Part shown: in pieces, positions 20,228-49,784 of the stretch
How the letters are laid out: each line of letters opens with the position of its first letter
How positions within the stretch are numbered: the stretch's first letter is position 1
NCBI GenBank assembly: GCA_003339415.1
Contig: PDHQ01000142.1
Coordinates: 1 to 64,000 of the forward strand
Direction of reading: 5' to 3'
DNA: 64,000 nucleotides
Source: Ophiocordyceps camponoti-saundersi (nom. inval.)
Taxonomy: Eukaryota > Ascomycota > Sordariomycetes > Hypocreales > Ophiocordycipitaceae
Notes under the pieces: model-generated
Database searches by the model: none
The model's input: only the letters and a program-made list of their open reading frames with translations
Told to the model about the DNA's origin: nothing
Translations under genes and position numbers: made by a program

Positions 20228-22015
20228 TACCAGCGGGCCAACAACGGATGTGAAAGTTCGCATCGGAAAAGCAACAAATAAGCCCTATTCGATATAATCA
20301 AGGCCATCCATCCCGCTCTGCCTCGATATTGCCGCTTGGTTTCGGGTTCGGGGAAGGGAAGGGACAAGACGGGGGATGCGAAACAGGTTAGGGGGGGGGG
20401 GGAGGGCAAAGGGAATTTTGACTCGTCTACGCGGCGGCTGAACATGTCGACAAGATCACGCCGCTGGAAGGGAGAAGGGGGGAAGAAGGGAAGAAGGAAG
20501 GGGGTTGGTTTTTGCAAGAACCGGAACTGAGAAACAACAGCATATATCAAGTTTTGCCGACCCCCCCCCTTTTCCTTCCCCTTATTCGCCCCCGAAATTG
20601 CTCCCGGCCTTTCGATCAAGTCCGTCTGGCCTCCGGGAGTTGGGGGAAGAGAAAGCGGAGAAGGTGCGGATGGAGGAGGTTAAACGGTTCCATCAGCGGC
20701 AACAGACGCGTGTGAATCGTTGGAGGGCCAAAGAGGGAGTGTTGAGAGGAAGATAATTCCGGTTAAGGATGAGGAAACACTTGAGCGGATGGCAGACGAG
20801 AGAAGCGGCATGCATAGATGAGAGCTTGCGGGATGCGAATTTGATTTGGACCAACGTTTGAGCTGGAAGCAGAGGTTGTTTGGCAGGGACGTTTGTGTCT
20901 TGTTGAGGGTGTCATGGTAAGCCAGTGTAGCAACCGGCAAGGCATATGTATGTATATAGAAGCACCAGGTAGAATGGTATGTATGTATAATGTTACCCGG
21001 CTTCGCGATAGAGGCCGCAATAGTTCCAATAGTAATGCTCTCTTGTTGAGACCCGGCGCGGGAAGCCGGGTGGCTGCCTTGGTCCAGAGCATGACTTGGC
21101 TCACGGCTTCAACGAGATCCGCATGTAGCGATCATCGAGCCTCTCTATCCCGTACCGGTGCATGTATGGTATGTATGTGAGCACGTATGTATGTATGTAG
21201 TATGTAGTAACAAAGATGAGCGACGGAACAAGCCGTCGGTTTGATGACTGACTCCAGAACCTTCCAGCCATTGTGTGAGTTCGTATTTGGTGTTTACACA
21301 CATACATACATACATATGTAAGTGTATACATACAACGCCACGAATAGGTAGGCATTTCCGTGTCGCATTTCACTCTGTTGAGACATGCGACATACATAGG
21401 ATGGGAGCCGATGGCGAGGGCTACCCTGTCTTTGCACAGGAAAGCAACAATCAAGTCTCATGAGCAGCACATACATACATACAGTATGTACACACACAAG
21501 TTCTATTGATGCAAGGGATCTTGTCCTATGTATGTACATATGTATGTATGGATAGATGTACGGAGTATCCGTAGACCGGTTGATAAAGAAAAGAAGACCC
21601 TTTCATACTACGCAAGACGAGCGAGCAATGTGGATGGCATGCTAAACCCGTCCAACCTCATGCACTTGTCAACTTACCTACCTACATATGTACATATGTA
21701 GATACCTATCTATCCTGTCCCTTGTTGTATGTATGTTTTCATGTCTTTCCCGTCTTTCAGCTTGAATACGACGCCAGTGTTCTCAGCCAAAGAATGTCAA
21801 CAGCAAGGGATGTGACACAATACAACGCACTTGGAGAGGGCGATCATCTGGTTGCATTCCTCACCCTACCGTTTCCCTACATACATACATACATACATAC
21901 ATATACTGGCTCTCCTCCCCTCCTTGTGATTCGTGAGTTAAAAGCCTTATCGCCGGCCTTCGCTTCCGCATACCGAACCTACCGTCTAGAAGACTATACC
22001 GCCTCGAATCTGACC
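20228..22015. other. gene-free stretch before the micro-exon gene
   Basis: Downstream of the CK2 beta gene and upstream of the micro-exon gene. Contains a poly-G run near 20391-20402 and repeated GTAT/CATA tetranucleotides at about 20943-20990, 21170-21205, 21296-21320, 21465-21485, 21525-21560 and 21878-21905. Short frames are fragmentary. The last 100 nt before the ATG at 22016 should hold the core promoter, but no clear TATA box is claimed. Confidence 0.55.
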
Positions 22016-23868
22016 ATGAAGATTTCCATCGCCCTCTTCTCCGTGCTGGCCGGACTGGCAGCAGCATATCCGTGTGAAAAGCACCCGACAGACGTAGGTA
22101 CCTACTAGCCGGTAGTAGGTGGTTTTGATGGCTGATATGACTCGCAGCCTGTATGAGCCCTTCAAAGACTTGATATCGAGTTGACAAAAGCGTGCTGAAA
22201 TCAATGGGAAAATCCCTTTAGGGAGTACGTGTGAATGACGCCGTGAAATGACCGAGACAATGCTAATACTCGTTGCGATGCAGTGCGTACGTTCATGTTC
22301 AGCTTCACGATTTGTTCAGTGACAGAGTCACAGGATCTGACGCTGCAGGAATCACCAGAGAGTAAGAAGAATCCCTCGAATTGGGCAAGCGTATGACTGG
22401 TGACAGCTGGATTGCTAACGTCACTGGAAAACGATAGTGGGTGAGTTCAACCATGTTCTGTTCTCTTGGGACTTGAATGACCGGACGCTGAATGTGTGTC
22501 TTACAGGAAGTGAGTTGAGCCCCCCCCAAACCCTAACGGCCATGAACAAGCATTATGATGCTGACAACCTGGGCAACACTTAGCCCGTACGTTGAACCTT
22601 ACCACGATTCTATGCTATGACTGATGATAAACCCGGTATTAATTGAACAATACTAGAATGTGAGTTTGGCCTTACGGGAGCGCCTGTGTGTCTGTAAAGA
22701 TGTTATCTGCTAACGTTGTTTATGACGAAGATCGTAAGCAGAAGTCCATGGCCTCCGTGGCGGGTGAACGTTGCTAATGAAGCTATGCCATGAACGATAG
22801 TTTGTGAGTTTGCAGCCCAGCATGGATCATAACATGGGCTTCTCGTTCAAGAAGACGACGCTGACAGAGATCACAGAATGCAAGTCTTTCACCCATCTGC
22901 CATAACACCTTTTAAACTGGCAGGGTTCTGACATTTCGAGCAGCCTGTGAGTACGGCCAGAGGGCTTTCACGGTACTAATGCTTGATAAGACGCTAAAGC
23001 AATACATCGGCAGGGTGTAAGTGCCCCGAAACGTGCAGTTGACAAGATGCTAATACAATGCTATTAGGGCGTAAGTCTCATCCCACGACTTCGTCCAGCG
23101 CGGTTAACATCAAGCTGAAAATCGTTAACAATGACCTACAGCCTGTGAGTTTCACCTCGTCACTTGATGATTTGCTGGGCATAGTTTCAGACCGTACTGA
23201 CCTCGCGGGCACCGCCAGGATGTGAGTCCATCCCCATACTTGATATGACTTGTTCGATGACGGAATACTAACGTCGCGGCGAATCCCAGGTCGTGAGTTT
23301 ACACCCGAAGTTGGTATCGCAGTTGACAACTCCAACTGACCCTACCCGGCTGTCCAGTGTGTAAGTTCAAGCGAATTCCCCCGTGAAGCTGCAGAGTATG
23401 TACTGACATGGCTGGAAACACTAGATTGTGAGTCCGCCCCTCGATATGGAGACGAGCTGGTTAACGTCAGTCCTAACACGATGGACGAATAGCCTGTAAG
23501 TTGAATTGCTATTCCTACCCAAGAATCACATGACAGATGATTTGAAACTAATACGACTAAAAATTCTAGTATGTAAGTTATATTCCACGGCCTTTGTATA
23601 AAGGGCCGATGCTGATGCTTCTGGCGATACCAGGGCGTAAGTCTAACCCCGTCACGTCACGTTGCACGATTGACGAAAGTTTGACAACGAACAAAAAAAA
23701 AACCTCTAGGCGGTAAGTTCTAAATACAGCTTACCCATGACTCATTGACGATGGTATGCTGATGATGTTGGACTTACTAGGTCGTAAGTGCAAGCCCGTG
23801 AAGAGCACCCGACATACATATGTGCATCAGAGGAGCTGGCTAATATGTCCGTCGATTACCAGCAATAA
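22016..23868 (+). CDS. secreted micro-exon peptide gene: 24 single-codon exons
   Basis: Not recognised as any known family. Exon 1 (22016-22093, 26 codons) encodes signal peptide MKISIALFSVLAGLAAA, then YPCEKHPTD. Then come 24 exons of exactly 3 nt, starting at 22148, 22222, 22284, 22359, 22438, 22507, 22584, 22657, 22731, 22801, 22877, 22944, 23014, 23068, 23142, 23219, 23290, 23358, 23425, 23493, 23570, 23634, 23710 and 23781. Exons 2-13 add PGCRWEPNIFNP. Exons 14-25 add GGPDVCIPYGAV. Exon 26 (23863-23868) is Gln plus TAA. The 25 introns are 51-79 nt, all phase 0: 24 GT-AG and one GC-AG (intron 12, 22880-22943). Nearly all have a CTAAY or CTGAY branch-like motif upstream of the acceptor. 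The product is 51 residues, about 34 mature, with three Cys. The coding fraction is 156 of 1,853 nt. The splicing is inferred; function is unknown, possibly an effector or signalling peptide. Confidence 0.82.
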
Positions 23869-24536
23869 ATTTCAAGCTGGATCGGTATCGAGAGACGAGT
23901 TATCCGAGGCGACGAGTCGATGGTTGGCTTGGGTTTCGGTTGATGGGCGGAGCTGCAAAGGGGGGTTTCGACGATGGGAAAGGCAGGGAAAATGTGTCGA
24001 GAGTAGGAATCAGAGAGGAAATGACAAGGTTCGACGAACACTACAGAGACATGCTTCGCAGTATCAGCGCCGTTCGCTAGCTGTGCTCGGGACGTTGCAT
24101 TTTGTATCTGCGAGGTCTGACCGGATTGTCGCCCGTTGGTGATGTTGAAAAGCTCCCTCCCTCTCAGGAAACAAGTGATGATGTCATCTCCTCCAGTCGA
24201 GATGTATGTGGTATGTAGGTATACAGTATTGGTGACATAACATGCCTAATGAACAGATGATGACTTCCTTCATAAACTGAGGTGCATGAACCACCGCGAT
24301 GCGATGAGGTGACACAGACAAATTACAATATATCCGAGGCTTGCACAAGTTGGATGAGTGCTTTCTTAGTCAACTACCACCTTGTGTACAGGCCATGCAT
24401 GCGGGGATCCGAGCCCTGCTCCATCTCAACTCCTCCTCCTCCTCCATCAACAGTTTAGGCCCGAAGAAGCCGAAAGCATAAACTCAAGATATCCCTTTCC
24501 AACCACCACCATCCATCCATCCAGCCAACAGCTGCC
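23869..24536. other. intergenic region
   Basis: 3' flank of the micro-exon gene and 5' flank of the EthD gene. A 128-codon open frame overlaps the last intron but shows no family features. A CCATCCATCCATCC-type run lies just upstream of the EthD start. Confidence 0.55.
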
Positions 24537-24848
24537 ATGTCCGCCGTCATCATCTTCTCCTATCCTCGCACCGCCGACGTCAAGTTCGACCACGACTATT
24601 ACACAGCGAGACACATGCCCTTCGTCGCCCGGACATGGGCCAAGCGCGGCATGCGCTCTTGGGAAGCCTTTCGCATGGCCGACGACGAATCAAGCGTGGC
24701 CGAGTGCGCCCTTCGCTGGGACAGCATCGAGGCTTTCGAAACGGCCATGAAGGAAGAGGCGACCGAGGTTCTCGCAGACGTCAAGAATTATTCCAACGTC
24801 TCCCCAATCATCCGCAAGGGAACCGTTGAAGGGCAGGGGTCAGCATGA
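24537..24848 (+). CDS. EthD-domain protein (dimeric alpha-beta barrel)
   Basis: Small intronless protein of 103 residues, the usual size of stand-alone EthD proteins, which fold as ferredoxin-like dimeric barrels. Seen: opening strand SAVIIFSYPRT, the family's DYYTARHMPFV segment (Tyr/His/Met-Pro near residues 24-30), and the pattern of strand, helix AFETAMKEEATEVLADV and a last strand before a short polar tail. EthD proteins were first linked to ethyl-tert-butyl-ether degradation in bacteria; in fungi most have no assigned substrate. The start is preceded by GCC and is the first ATG of the frame. It lies alone between the micro-exon gene and the convergent BTB gene. Confidence 0.85.
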   Translation: MSAVIIFSYPRTADVKFDHDYYTARHMPFVARTWAKRGMRSWEAFRMADDESSVAECALRWDSIEAFETAMKEEATEVLADVKNYSNVSPIIRKGTVEGQGSA

Positions 24849-38384: not shown

Positions 38385-40907
38385 TCAACTACGTCCAGCG
38401 GCACGCTCAGAGAGGTCTTGAGCCGATCCTCGAGCGGGCCAGTCAAGCGGGTCTCTTTCATCCTTACGAACTCCGGCGCCCTGCGGCGGAGGGTTACGCA
38501 CTTGCTGCTGATTTGAGGCGTTAGGAATGTTATTCGCTGTATCTTGTTGCTTCTTCTGGGCTGAGGGGCCGTGCAGGGAATTTGCTCGAGCGGCAACGTC
38601 TTCAGCGGATCCTCGCTTGTGCCAGTCATCGTCGTCAACAGGCTTCGGCTTAGACACTTGCTCCTCTCGAGGGGGGATCTTGTCAGTCGGACCTTGCGCG
38701 CCTTGGTTGCCGCCTTTGGTTCGCTGGGAGATGTCCTCAGAAGAGCCCCGCTGCGGCCAATCAGTGTCCGGCTGCTCGCCTTTATGAAGAGAGTCGTCAT
38801 GAGTCTTGTCGCCATCTGCCTTTCCGGGAAGTTCGCAGTGGATGCCCTCAGAATCGACCCAGCATCGCTGCCCGCCAACCTTGGAAGGGCAGTATTGGAA
38901 TTCGAAACAGTCGTCGGCAGCCAGGACGCAGCTCTGTCCGTTGTAGACCTCGCCATCAGGGCAGTGCGGCCTTGTCTCTGAGACGCAATCCTTCAGGTTC
39001 TTGTCAAAAGTTGTTCCCTTGGGGCACTCTGGCCCAGTAACTGCCACACAGCTCTTCGCCTTGCTATCGAACTTGAAACCGTCGGGGCAGACAGGAGCAA
39101 TATGAGAAGTGCATTCTTCGCCGTCGAGAAACGTTCCGTCGGGGCATCTTGGGCCTTCAGCTATGCAGACGGAGCCGGTGTAGATGAACCCCGGCTTGCA
39201 CTTCGGCACTGACCTCGAGATGCACTGGCCGGCCTTCAGCACATATCCCTCCGGGCATTGCTGCTCCTGTTCTTTGGCCACGCAGACGCCGTTGATGAGT
39301 TTGTGGTCTGGGGGGCATCCGGGCCCATCGATAGACTCGCACCCGGCCTCTCCAACGACAAAGCCCGGCGGACACTTGGCGCCCCTCACCATGCAGGCGC
39401 CGCTGCGGAGGCTGAAGGGCGGAGGACATGATGGCGGGACGCTCACAAGGCAGTCCCCGTCCCTGTTCAGCACCGATCCGGTAGGGCAGTTCGGCACCAA
39501 GTCTCTCCCAACACAGCGCTCCCCATCGAAGTAAGAACCATCGTGACAGATGGCCTTGGTGCCCTTGATGCAGTCGTTCATGTCGAGGAAGCCTTCTGGG
39601 CAGCTTGGCTCCCCATGAAGAGACACGCATTTCTGTCCGCTCCACATGAACGAGTCCGGACAGATGGGCTCAACCATGATGACACACCTTCCCTGCTGCG
39701 TGACGGAGCCAGGTGGACAGATAGGTCGGTTGAGCTGGACGCATTCTCCTCCGCGAATGAAGGCTCCTTCTGGACAGGTCGGTCTCTGCGTGGTGCTGCA
39801 AGTGTCGCCATCTCGGTGAAAGTCCTTGGGACACTCGGGAGGTGAGCGACGGACACAGCGAGACTGATCCAGTCGGTAGCCCGTGGGACAGACAGGGACA
39901 GGAGTCGCGTGCCTCACGCAGCGACCTCTGACGGGGGGCTTGCCATCAGGACACTTGCCATCCACGGCCGTCATGCCACATGTCTCTCCGTCCCAAGTCA
40001 TACTCTCCGGGCAGCAGCGGCTGCTCTGACCCGTCTCGTCGACCGAGAGCTTCATGCCTTTGAGACACGTGGGGCTGTCGATGAGAACACAGGTCTTGCC
40101 CACGAGCTGAGTTTCGGGAGGACACTGAGGCTTCTCAACGGCGTTGCAAGTCGATGACTCTGGGTTGAAGGTGGTATCGCCCGGACAGCCAGGTTTCTGA
40201 CCATGGACGCAGTATCCGTCCTGCAGCAGGGTACCCGGCGGACAGGAGGGCTCGTCACGGGCGATGCAGCGACCGCTGGCCTCGTCGAACCGGGCGCCCT
40301 CGACAGTGCATTTGGGCAGCTCCCTGCTGACGCAGACGCCTTGTTCGGGCTTGGATCCGTCCGGGCACACGGGACCCTTGACCGAGGCGCAGACCCGGCC
40401 GTTGAATTGTTCTCCGGACGGACAAGTGGGCGGCTTCTCGGAGATGCACACATTGCCCTTGGGCTTGAATCCAGGGCCGCAAGTCGCCCCCCCTGGCTTG
40501 ATGCAGTATCCTCCCTTGACTATGGTCCCGGCCGGACAGACGGCATCTTCGTGGGAAACGCAGACCCCATCCTTGAAGTACGAGTTGCCCTGGCAGACCG
40601 GCTTGACGTGCTGCACGCACTTGTCGTTGACCTTGACGGTGCCTTCGGGACATGAGGGCCCGTGACCGATAAGGACGCACTGAGAACCGTCGAATTCGGT
40701 TCCCAGAGGACAACATTTGATCTTGCCTGAAGCCTGGTCGCGGCTGGGGATGATCTGATTTAAAGGGAGTTTGAACGGTTGCTGGTTGGGAGAGCTCATG
40801 ACCTTTTGGTTCACGTTCGGCAAGTCTGCCGCAGCAGGGAGAGCCCAGAGAAAAATTGCTATGAGGAACATTATCTTGCCTCGATCAAAGATGGAAAATG
40901 GAGGCAT
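38385..40907 (-). CDS. secreted protein with about 30 Cys-Pro repeats
   Basis: Intronless, 840 residues. N-terminal signal anchor (FLIAIFLWALPAAA, residues about 14-27; a second Met at codon 13 is an alternative start). Residues about 62-690 are tandem units of 20-24 residues with pattern C-P-x-G-x(4-8)-G-x-C-V, two Cys per unit, roughly 30 units. The layout recalls apicomplexan oocyst-wall-type Cys repeats and other disulfide-rich matrix proteins, a resemblance from memory, not an assignment. After a divergent Cys cluster (about 675-695), the last 140 residues are Cys-free and polar. They carry three copies of a D-W-x-x-R-G-S-x-x-D motif (DWPQRGSSED, DWHKRGSAED, DWPARGSAQD) spaced about 40-50 residues apart. 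Likely a cell-wall or extracellular structural protein; function unproven. Confidence 0.8.
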   Translation of the reverse strand: MPPFSIFDRGKIMFLIAIFLWALPAAADLPNVNQKVMSSPNQQPFKLPLNQIIPSRDQASGKIKCCPLGTEFDGSQCVLIGHGPSCPEGTVKVNDKCVQHVKPVCQGNSYFKDGVCVSHEDAVCPAGTIVKGGYCIKPGGATCGPGFKPKGNVCISEKPPTCPSGEQFNGRVCASVKGPVCPDGSKPEQGVCVSRELPKCTVEGARFDEASGRCIARDEPSCPPGTLLQDGYCVHGQKPGCPGDTTFNPESSTCNAVEKPQCPPETQLVGKTCVLIDSPTCLKGMKLSVDETGQSSRCCPESMTWDGETCGMTAVDGKCPDGKPPVRGRCVRHATPVPVCPTGYRLDQSRCVRRSPPECPKDFHRDGDTCSTTQRPTCPEGAFIRGGECVQLNRPICPPGSVTQQGRCVIMVEPICPDSFMWSGQKCVSLHGEPSCPEGFLDMNDCIKGTKAICHDGSYFDGERCVGRDLVPNCPTGSVLNRDGDCLVSVPPSCPPPFSLRSGACMVRGAKCPPGFVVGEAGCESIDGPGCPPDHKLINGVCVAKEQEQQCPEGYVLKAGQCISRSVPKCKPGFIYTGSVCIAEGPRCPDGTFLDGEECTSHIAPVCPDGFKFDSKAKSCVAVTGPECPKGTTFDKNLKDCVSETRPHCPDGEVYNGQSCVLAADDCFEFQYCPSKVGGQRCWVDSEGIHCELPGKADGDKTHDDSLHKGEQPDTDWPQRGSSEDISQRTKGGNQGAQGPTDKIPPREEQVSKPKPVDDDDWHKRGSAEDVAARANSLHGPSAQKKQQDTANNIPNASNQQQVRNPPPQGAGVRKDERDPLDWPARGSAQDLSERAAGRS

Positions 40908-42111
40908 GGTGATAGAGAAAGATAGAGTTGATGTGTTCGAGGGGAAGCCAAATGTGGTTGATAAAAGTTGACGAGGTGACTAGCCTAGAGTTACGACACA
41001 AGCTGCCGCTGCCAACAGAATATCGTTCTTTATATAGACATGATTTCCGTTAATTCTCATATCTGTGTCATTATGCAGACGGTCGTCTTAAGTCGCAGCA
41101 TGAAACCCCAGCCTCTGTCCTGAAAGGGAAACCCTGGAGTTTGTCTTCCACCTTTCAGCCATCCGCCTCCTCGACACATAATCTCCGAGTGCTTGAGAGA
41201 CAACTCCAAGCGCGGTAATTACTATTGGCGAACAGTCCTCGTCTCGGAGACACGAGCTGCGGCAGGATTCGCGAGACACGAGCTGCGAGAGGAAGATAAT
41301 CAGGCTGAAAAGCAACACTTCGCTGCAATCCATCGAGTCTATCGAGCCCGTCGCCACGACGAGAAACGTCCGGCTAATTTGCTCAATCAGGCCATTCATG
41401 GATTGGTTGTGGCACAGGCTACAGCTACTACAATGAGTGGAACTTGATCGACGCGAGTGGCTTTTCTGGTTGGAGATCACCAGTCTTGGGAAGCAGTTGA
41501 TGCCTGGATGGCGGTGAAAGTTGTAAGATGGACTGGCTTGAACTCTACACCCCATGGGAGTGTGCATTGAGGACACCATGAGACAGCCAATTACACATCT
41601 TCCGTGAGTGATGGATGGTTCCCGTGCCCGGCTTCAGCTCTACGGCAATTGCGAGCCACTTTCGTCAGATTGTCTCAAGCCTCCTCGTATTTACTCACAA
41701 TATGATAGCTGCAGCTGCAGATTGTCGTGAAGTCGTGTGGCTGCAGACAGCGTTGAACTCGTGTGGTTGCAGATCGTCGTGACTTCGTGCTAAGACAACA
41801 CCTGAGGAGTTTCGGGGCAGGGATTGGAAGACTCAGAGGAGCTGGAGCAGCCCCGATTAGGACAGTGCACCGCCCTGTTGACTGGTGTAAGCCGCGACCT
41901 CAAATCCTCCCATGTCTCTACGGAGGAACCGAACATGCATGTACATACAGTTGAACAACAAAGGCAATATGAGGGCTTACGTGTAAGTATCTAGGTCGGC
42001 AGAAGTTCATGGAGGACGGTATATATATACGGCATGGTTCTGCTCCCCGGTATAAGCTATCGTCACTCCAATTACTCCCATCATCCCTATCATTATTACT
42101 TTACGTTCGTC
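40908..42111. other. divergent gene-free stretch
   Basis: Between the Cys-repeat gene (-) and a small secreted gene (+), both predicted secreted. Contains a locally repeated element near 41707-41785, where GCAGATTGTCGTGA and a close variant recur about 58 nt apart, each with GTGTGG nearby. No gene is supported. Confidence 0.55.

Positions 42112-43075: not shown

Positions 43076-43138
<63 letters not shown>
43076..43138. repeat. poly-G homopolymer (63 nt)
   Basis: An uninterrupted run of 63 G. Its true length is doubtful because homopolymers this long are rarely read correctly. Confidence 0.9.
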
Positions 43139-49477: not shown

Positions 49478-49716
49478 AGGCCATTGGACGACGGATGGAG
49501 GGAAAGGAAGGGAGGAGGAGAATTGGGCCGGGAGGGGGGGTTTTTGGACATGGGAAGGGGGGGGGGGGGGGGGGGGGGCGGGGAAGGGGGGGGGCGGGGG
49601 GGGGGGCCTCAACGCAGGAAATCCCCAGCGACGCTCCTTTTAAAGAGGGGTTTGTTTCTGTCTTGCCCCNNNNNNNNNNTTTTGTTGTTTTGTGTGGGGG
49701 GGGGGGGGGGGGGGGT

Positions 49717-49784
<68 letters not shown>

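Follow-up and report, generated by a model that had tools for sequence, protein, structure and literature searches.

This analysis revealed that positions 22016-23868 on the plus strand can be read as a gene of 26 exons and 25 introns, in which each of the 24 internal exons consists of a single codon. The architecture, the quality of the splice signals and the reading frame are plain in the DNA itself. This is probably a real and intact micro-exon gene that codes for a protein; its introns would be spliced one by one, and its product would be a small, probably secreted peptide. If RNA confirms this reading, the locus would represent an extreme of split-gene architecture in a zombie-ant fungus, with 25 introns for 51 amino acids. 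The window, which is the whole stretch of DNA that was analyzed, comprises 64,000 nt. A neighboring serine carboxypeptidase matches CP533_5642 of Ophiocordyceps camponoti-saundersi with 100% identity and 98% coverage; this species belongs to the Hypocreales among the ascomycetes and is placed in the O. unilateralis complex by PMC11057048.

Architecture and splice signals

Exon 1 (22016-22093, 78 nt) encodes a predicted signal peptide and the first nine predicted mature residues, and is followed by the donor GTAGGT. The intron array (22094-23862) comprises 25 introns of 51-79 nt (mean 67.9 nt), all in phase 0, which hold the 24 internal exons, each exactly 3 nt long. In order, these micro-exons are CCT (P, 22148-22150), GGA (G, 22222-22224), TGC (C, 22284-22286), AGA (R, 22359-22361), TGG (W, 22438-22440), GAA (E, 22507-22509), CCC (P, 22584-22586), AAT (N, 22657-22659), ATC (I, 22731-22733), TTT (F, 22801-22803), AAT (N, 22877-22879), CCT (P, 22944-22946), GGT (G, 23014-23016), GGC (G, 23068-23070), CCT (P, 23142-23144), GAT (D, 23219-23221), GTC (V, 23290-23292), TGT (C, 23358-23360), ATT (I, 23425-23427), CCT (P, 23493-23495), TAT (Y, 23570-23572), GGC (G, 23634-23636), GCG (A, 23710-23712) and GTC (V, 23781-23783). 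The final acceptor, CAG, is followed by the last exon, CAA TAA (Q and stop, 23863-23868). At the second micro-exon, an overlapping alternative is present, with an AG at 22224, then TAC (22226-22228), then GTGTGA. Exon length is constant across the array, whereas intron length varies; the steps from unit to unit measure 54-79 nt, and the step to the final acceptor 82 nt. The spliced coding sequence of 156 nt encodes 51 amino acids without an internal stop, which corresponds to 160 introns per kb of coding sequence. The 78-nt first exon, the 24 internal exons of 3 nt, the phase-0 introns, the 156-nt coding product without an internal stop and the terminal CAA TAA had been proposed in the sequence-only reading, and they were re-derived here, with the 82-nt step to the last acceptor added to the 54-79 nt steps given there.

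Without splicing, the frame that opens at the ATG of exon 1 ends after 30 codons. The four introns whose length is divisible by three all contain an in-frame stop, so that retention of any single intron would give no full product. Skipping of any micro-exon, on the other hand, stays in frame, because each is one phase-0 codon. The ATG of exon 1 lies inside a longer in-frame ORF (21794-22108, plus strand) with an upstream ATG at 21794, and a longer N-terminus is therefore possible from the sequence. No frame of at least 150 codons, counted from stop to stop, was found inside the array on either strand. Shorter ATG frames overlap the array, the longest being two on the plus strand: one of 128 amino acids (23756-24142), which covers the last units and extends beyond the stop of the array, and one of 55 amino acids (23058-23225). 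Neither had a Pfam match. The 128-residue frame is probably due to chance, but it may still be a gene.

With regard to the splice sites, all 25 introns end in AG. The sequence-only reading had described the donors as GT(R)AG(T) throughout; GT was indeed present at 24 of the 25, but intron 12 starts with GC (22880, GCAAGT), and the longer consensus was found less often, with GTRAG in 19/25 and GTRAGT in 17/25. A branch-like motif had also been noted, and this held for every unit: CTRA or TTRAY starting 16-29 nt before the intron end occurs in 25/25 introns, compared with 361 of 2787 control HAG sites elsewhere on the plus strand of the window (13%), and the stricter CTRAY in 19/25 compared with 103/2787. 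Between the branch point and the acceptor, AG is depleted: five were counted in 340 dinucleotides (in introns 4, 10, 11 and 12), as against 33 in 772 positions upstream of the branch motif in the same introns and a rate of 6.6% in the window.

The donors are also stronger than in a rough reference set. GTRAGT was found in 17/25 introns of the locus, compared with 5/55 candidate introns from elsewhere in the genome (Fisher p 1.5e-7). These candidates are uncurated, were required to have an open frame on either side, had loosely pre-filtered donors and surely include false ones. These reference introns were collected at three stringencies (17, 55 and 124), and a narrower filter gave 10. Strong donors make sense given that the exon side of each junction would be only 3 nt. 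The motif TGAC, present in 20/25 introns where shuffles predict 5, was set aside as an array-specific signal because it is common in reference introns as well (11/17 and 29/55); TGACA is more skewed (11/25, compared with 1/17 and 7/55). The intron lengths of the locus fit the median introns of 60-71 nt given for five ant-infecting Ophiocordyceps in PMC5624889.

A chance origin of the pattern was rejected. When chains were defined as AG-N3-G[TC]RNG sites 50-85 nt apart, the longest chain was 24 sites in the locus, one in the rest of the window on the plus strand and two on the minus strand. Among 100 windows of 64 kb simulated with a first-order Markov model, the longest chain was one site in 12, two in 84 and three in 4; a further 171 kb of the genome (18 other stretches, read on both strands) had none longer than three. 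A strict AG-N3-GTRAGT run reached 13 (22942-23779), compared with 0 or 1 in the Markov simulations. The bare AG-N3-GT run also reached only 13, because the GC donor interrupts the chain, compared with 2-5 in simulations and at most 4 in the 18 other stretches. When whole introns (donor, branch motif and acceptor) were chained through 3-nt exons, 25 were linked in the locus and at most two elsewhere (235 kb, both strands); when the exons were allowed to measure 1-6 or 3-12 nt, the figures were 25 and at most three. The script for this search accepts any donor-like site, and the first intron of its chain accordingly uses 22072. The 235 kb examined represent about 0.5% of the 45.7-Mb genome, in which other such genes may exist.

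Chains of three or four sites in three of the other stretches (L019, L005 and L004) were judged by eye to be chance; their surroundings were repeat-like DNA, a stretch of simple repeats and what seems to be coding DNA, and a regular pattern of branch motif and donor was missing. The repeat-like part of L019 (6000-7200) has a TpA/ApT ratio of 1.79, with 190 TA, 83 CG and a G+C content of 0.41, an index by which it might fit repeat-induced point mutation. A tandem repeat or satellite was likewise rejected, since Tandem Repeats Finder placed none of its 46 rows in 22016-23868.

The predicted peptide and its possible mode of splicing

Exon 1 is signal-peptide-like. Residues 3-17 are hydrophobic, with a mean Kyte-Doolittle value of 2.29 compared with -0.69 for residues 18-51, and a cut placed by eye after AAA would leave a predicted mature peptide of 34 amino acids with three cysteines. 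This prediction agrees with the signal peptide and the three mature cysteines of the sequence-only reading. The product would be a 51-residue precursor whose mature part is probably secreted, and by analogy its role is perhaps in host interaction, maybe on the ant.

Each short intron would be recognized by intron definition, through its own donor, its own branch point and the nearest acceptor. Since a 3-nt exon is too small for its two splice sites to be used simultaneously, splicing would probably proceed stepwise. The removal of each intron would append one codon to the preceding exon, and the next donor would thereby gain a normal exon context, so that the process would be recursive in effect. 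If the locus is spliced in this way, it would offer a natural test of the spliceosome on exons below its own footprint, and it would be the densest intron run in coding sequence known to us.

Given that the omission of any subset of the one-codon phase-0 exons would still yield an in-frame peptide, the gene could also act as a generator of variants, from which a set of secreted peptides with residue-by-residue differences would arise. We regard this extension as doubtful; if it is true, other fungi that infect ants may have related genes that are just as hidden.

The evidence for coding in the micro-exons themselves is mixed. The absence of stops among the 24 triplets is weak evidence, since 26% of random sets reach it. 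None of 20,000 random sets combined at least nine prolines and glycines with two cysteines and no stop, in a test that was chosen after the peptide had been seen. Of the third bases of the micro-exons, 12 are T, 7 are C, 3 are A and 2 are G, compared with 18.7% T, 34.4% C, 17.1% A and 29.8% G in six ORFs of the window, which were taken uncurated from stop to stop. This excess of T is unlike the neighboring genes, and ordinary codon choice is not visible. It is also unlike the composition of the introns. Pyrimidines occupy 19 of the 24 third positions (p 0.007 against one half, 0.013 against the window ORFs), which is notable because no stop codon ends in a pyrimidine. For the sequence-only reading as a secreted micro-exon gene, the architecture, the branch-motif control and the donor strength all argue in its favor, and the half share of T at the third base is the part that does not agree with plain coding.

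The same third-base usage, unlike the codons of neighboring genes, counts in favor of a rival reading, in which the array is a ladder of recursive splicing and its transcript is non-coding or coding in name only. Selection would then act on the removal of introns in series, for its timing or for the RNA that the introns provide, and the 3-nt pieces would be a by-product with no function as a peptide. The splice signals kept in every unit agree with such a ladder, and a mechanical constraint could set the 3-nt spacing. Nevertheless, we consider it unlikely. Against a ladder of this kind stand a signal-peptide-like exon 1 in frame with 24 stop-free triplets and with an immediate stop in the last exon, and exon lengths that are fixed while intron lengths vary. 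No Rfam family matched at its gathering score anywhere in the window on either strand, which counts against the ladder and by which a host gene for structured or intronic small RNAs was rejected as well. Introns of this size are too short for the usual box C/D RNAs, and this too speaks against the ladder.

It is also conceivable that splicing proceeds mainly by skipping, through removal of a single 1769-nt intron (22094-23862) or of a few long ones, that the product is a short peptide lacking most micro-exons, and that the AG-N3-GT sites serve as decoys or ratchet points. The frame would always be kept, and the acceptors and donors resemble one another, so that competition between them is possible. 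However, the skipping of even one exon would create introns well over 100 nt, which is out of line with the medians of 60-71 nt in the genus (PMC5624889), whereas the nearest-site pairs all lie at 51-79 nt and each has its own branch point. We therefore hold this explanation to be very improbable, and the intron-by-intron removal described above is preferred.

Origin of the array and genomic surroundings

The introns of the array are barely alike in their interiors. Upstream of the branch point, their similarity is near chance, with 5 of 200 dinucleotide shuffles reaching the observed mean. A slight excess of identity was found beside the donors (reached by 0/1000 shuffles) and before the acceptors (1/1000), and some pairs of units align at 61-75% over 41-44 nt. 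Simple shuffles gave a larger excess (mean 12.99 compared with 11.78; when masked, 10.62 compared with 9.10, reached by 0/100), but our conclusions rest on the dinucleotide shuffles. A unit-pair model, for which 20 of the 23 pairs were used and three left out, gave 16 matches in the window at E up to 10, all of which lie in the locus by construction. Neighboring units (mean score 10.3) resemble each other no more than distant ones do (10.6), and recent copying from neighbor to neighbor is therefore not seen.

Another probable trace of duplication lies in intron 25, a 26-nt segment (23798-23823, plus strand) that is identical at 22 of 26 positions (85%) to 22074-22099, that is, to the end of exon 1 and its donor. 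Its local score of 32 exceeds the maxima of 28 and 24 obtained in 300 + 300 shuffles. Together with the weak similarity of the units, this exon-1 relic suggests tandem duplication, although part of that similarity could come from splicing preferences common to the units. Most likely, the array grew long ago by duplication of a unit consisting of an intron plus one codon, and this duplication would have included the end of exon 1 at least once. Such a unit would explain why the internal exons are exactly 3 nt long. For coding, a length of 6 or 9 nt would do equally well, and the uniform size of 3 nt needs either duplication or a mechanical cause. If the gene is real, the origin of such arrays becomes testable.

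Introner-like elements are near-identical copies of introns at several places in a genome. A recent burst of such elements was rejected here, since the interiors are near shuffle similarity and the locus matches only itself. Interiors with near-chance similarity, next to splice signals that every unit has kept intact, are as expected if the splicing of every unit is selected. A neutral or decaying tandem array of intron-like repeats without a functional transcript, for which the relic in intron 25 could be counted as a sign of rearrangement and the failure to find a homologue in the protein database, within the lengths searched, as a further point, is scarcely credible, because units almost unrecognizable as copies retain 25/25 donors and acceptors and 24/24 exon lengths, many of which neutral decay would have destroyed.

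Similarity searches gave no relatives. Among 5.8 billion proteins, searched in two length ranges, none contained three 5-residue words of the peptide. BLAST of the DNA and of the peptide against the genome at E up to 10 returned self-matches and no second copy; the 5' flank matched itself and eight pieces of 24-40 nt in CATA/TATG-like repeats. Pfam gave no match for the peptide, and two PDB rows at E 1.2 and 3.7 were taken as chance. If it is true as read, the locus would be a peptide gene that escapes annotation based on ORFs and homology.

The array is flanked by a casein kinase II beta gene (PF01214, 19301-20227) upstream and by an EthD-like ORF (24537-24845) downstream, the latter a weak match of 16.6 bits against a Pfam cut-off of 22. 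Elsewhere in the window, a frame of 864 amino acids from stop to stop (38385-40979, minus strand) shows, by eye, a hydrophobic start and regular cysteine-rich repeats. It contains 67 cysteines and 26 Cys-Pro pairs, and nothing matched it in Pfam (E up to 1) or in the PDB (E up to 0.01). Runs of 63, 22, 20 and 67 G at 43076-43138 and 49557-49783 are either real low complexity or an assembly artefact.

Relation to known micro-exon systems

Known ratchet points are a feature of long introns, and the exon they leave is either none or one that is skipped. At this locus, each step would leave one codon, and the introns are short. The resemblance to recursive splicing lies in an acceptor placed directly beside a donor and in stepwise removal (PMC6224609, PMC8605326).

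Isolated exons of this size have been described. Drosophila homothorax has one of 3 bp, RPS24 has microexons (PMC7392893, PMC12686416, PMC11162997), and CYP621A of Fusarium, a filamentous ascomycete, has a single 1-nt exon with read support (PMC12940212). These cases show that the splicing of exons no longer than 3 nt is possible, as would be required here, but they occur once per gene, or three times in RPS24, and not 24 times. A paper from 2024 states that functional microexons had not previously been described in filamentous fungi (PMC11121469).

Under the working definition in PMC7653826, a micro-exon gene has at least seven exons, at least half of them micro-exons, with a run of at least four. 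The present locus, with 26 exons, 24 of 3 nt and a run of 24, falls within these values, though the definition takes exons from annotation or transcripts and those of the locus are read from the sequence. The micro-exon genes of schistosomes and tapeworms are similar in that they encode secreted proteins with a signal peptide, have small exons mostly divisible by three, allow in-frame skipping and are hard for gene finders (PMC10526429, PMC7653826). Their exons range from 3 or 6 to 81 bp and mostly measure 15 (PMC10526429, PMC7653826), whereas all internal exons of the locus are 3 nt; schistosome genes of this type have 10-20 short exons and introns of 0.1-5 kb (PMC10526429), compared with 51-79 nt here. 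The flatworm genes are animal and the locus is fungal, and no sequence relation was seen with a 51-residue query, which is an insensitive one.

The bicycle genes of aphids likewise encode putative secreted effectors from many unusually small internal exons of one phase. They have about 17 exons on average, almost all in phase 2 (PMC9168663), whereas all 25 introns of the locus are in phase 0 and each internal exon is one codon. In aphid megacycle, over 100 microexons encode about 2000 residues (PMC9168663), and therefore far more than one codon per exon. Given this gene, the number of micro-exons at the locus is no record, and it is their uniform size of one codon that stands out.

Among the matches listed in searches of open-licence PubMed Central papers, no uninterrupted series of one-codon exons was found, in agreement with the sequence-only reading, which knew of no such gene. 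Nevertheless, the architecture falls within the known concept of the micro-exon gene, and the uniform run of single codons appears to be its new part. If the gene is real, a gene architecture of animal parasites would extend to insect-manipulating fungi.
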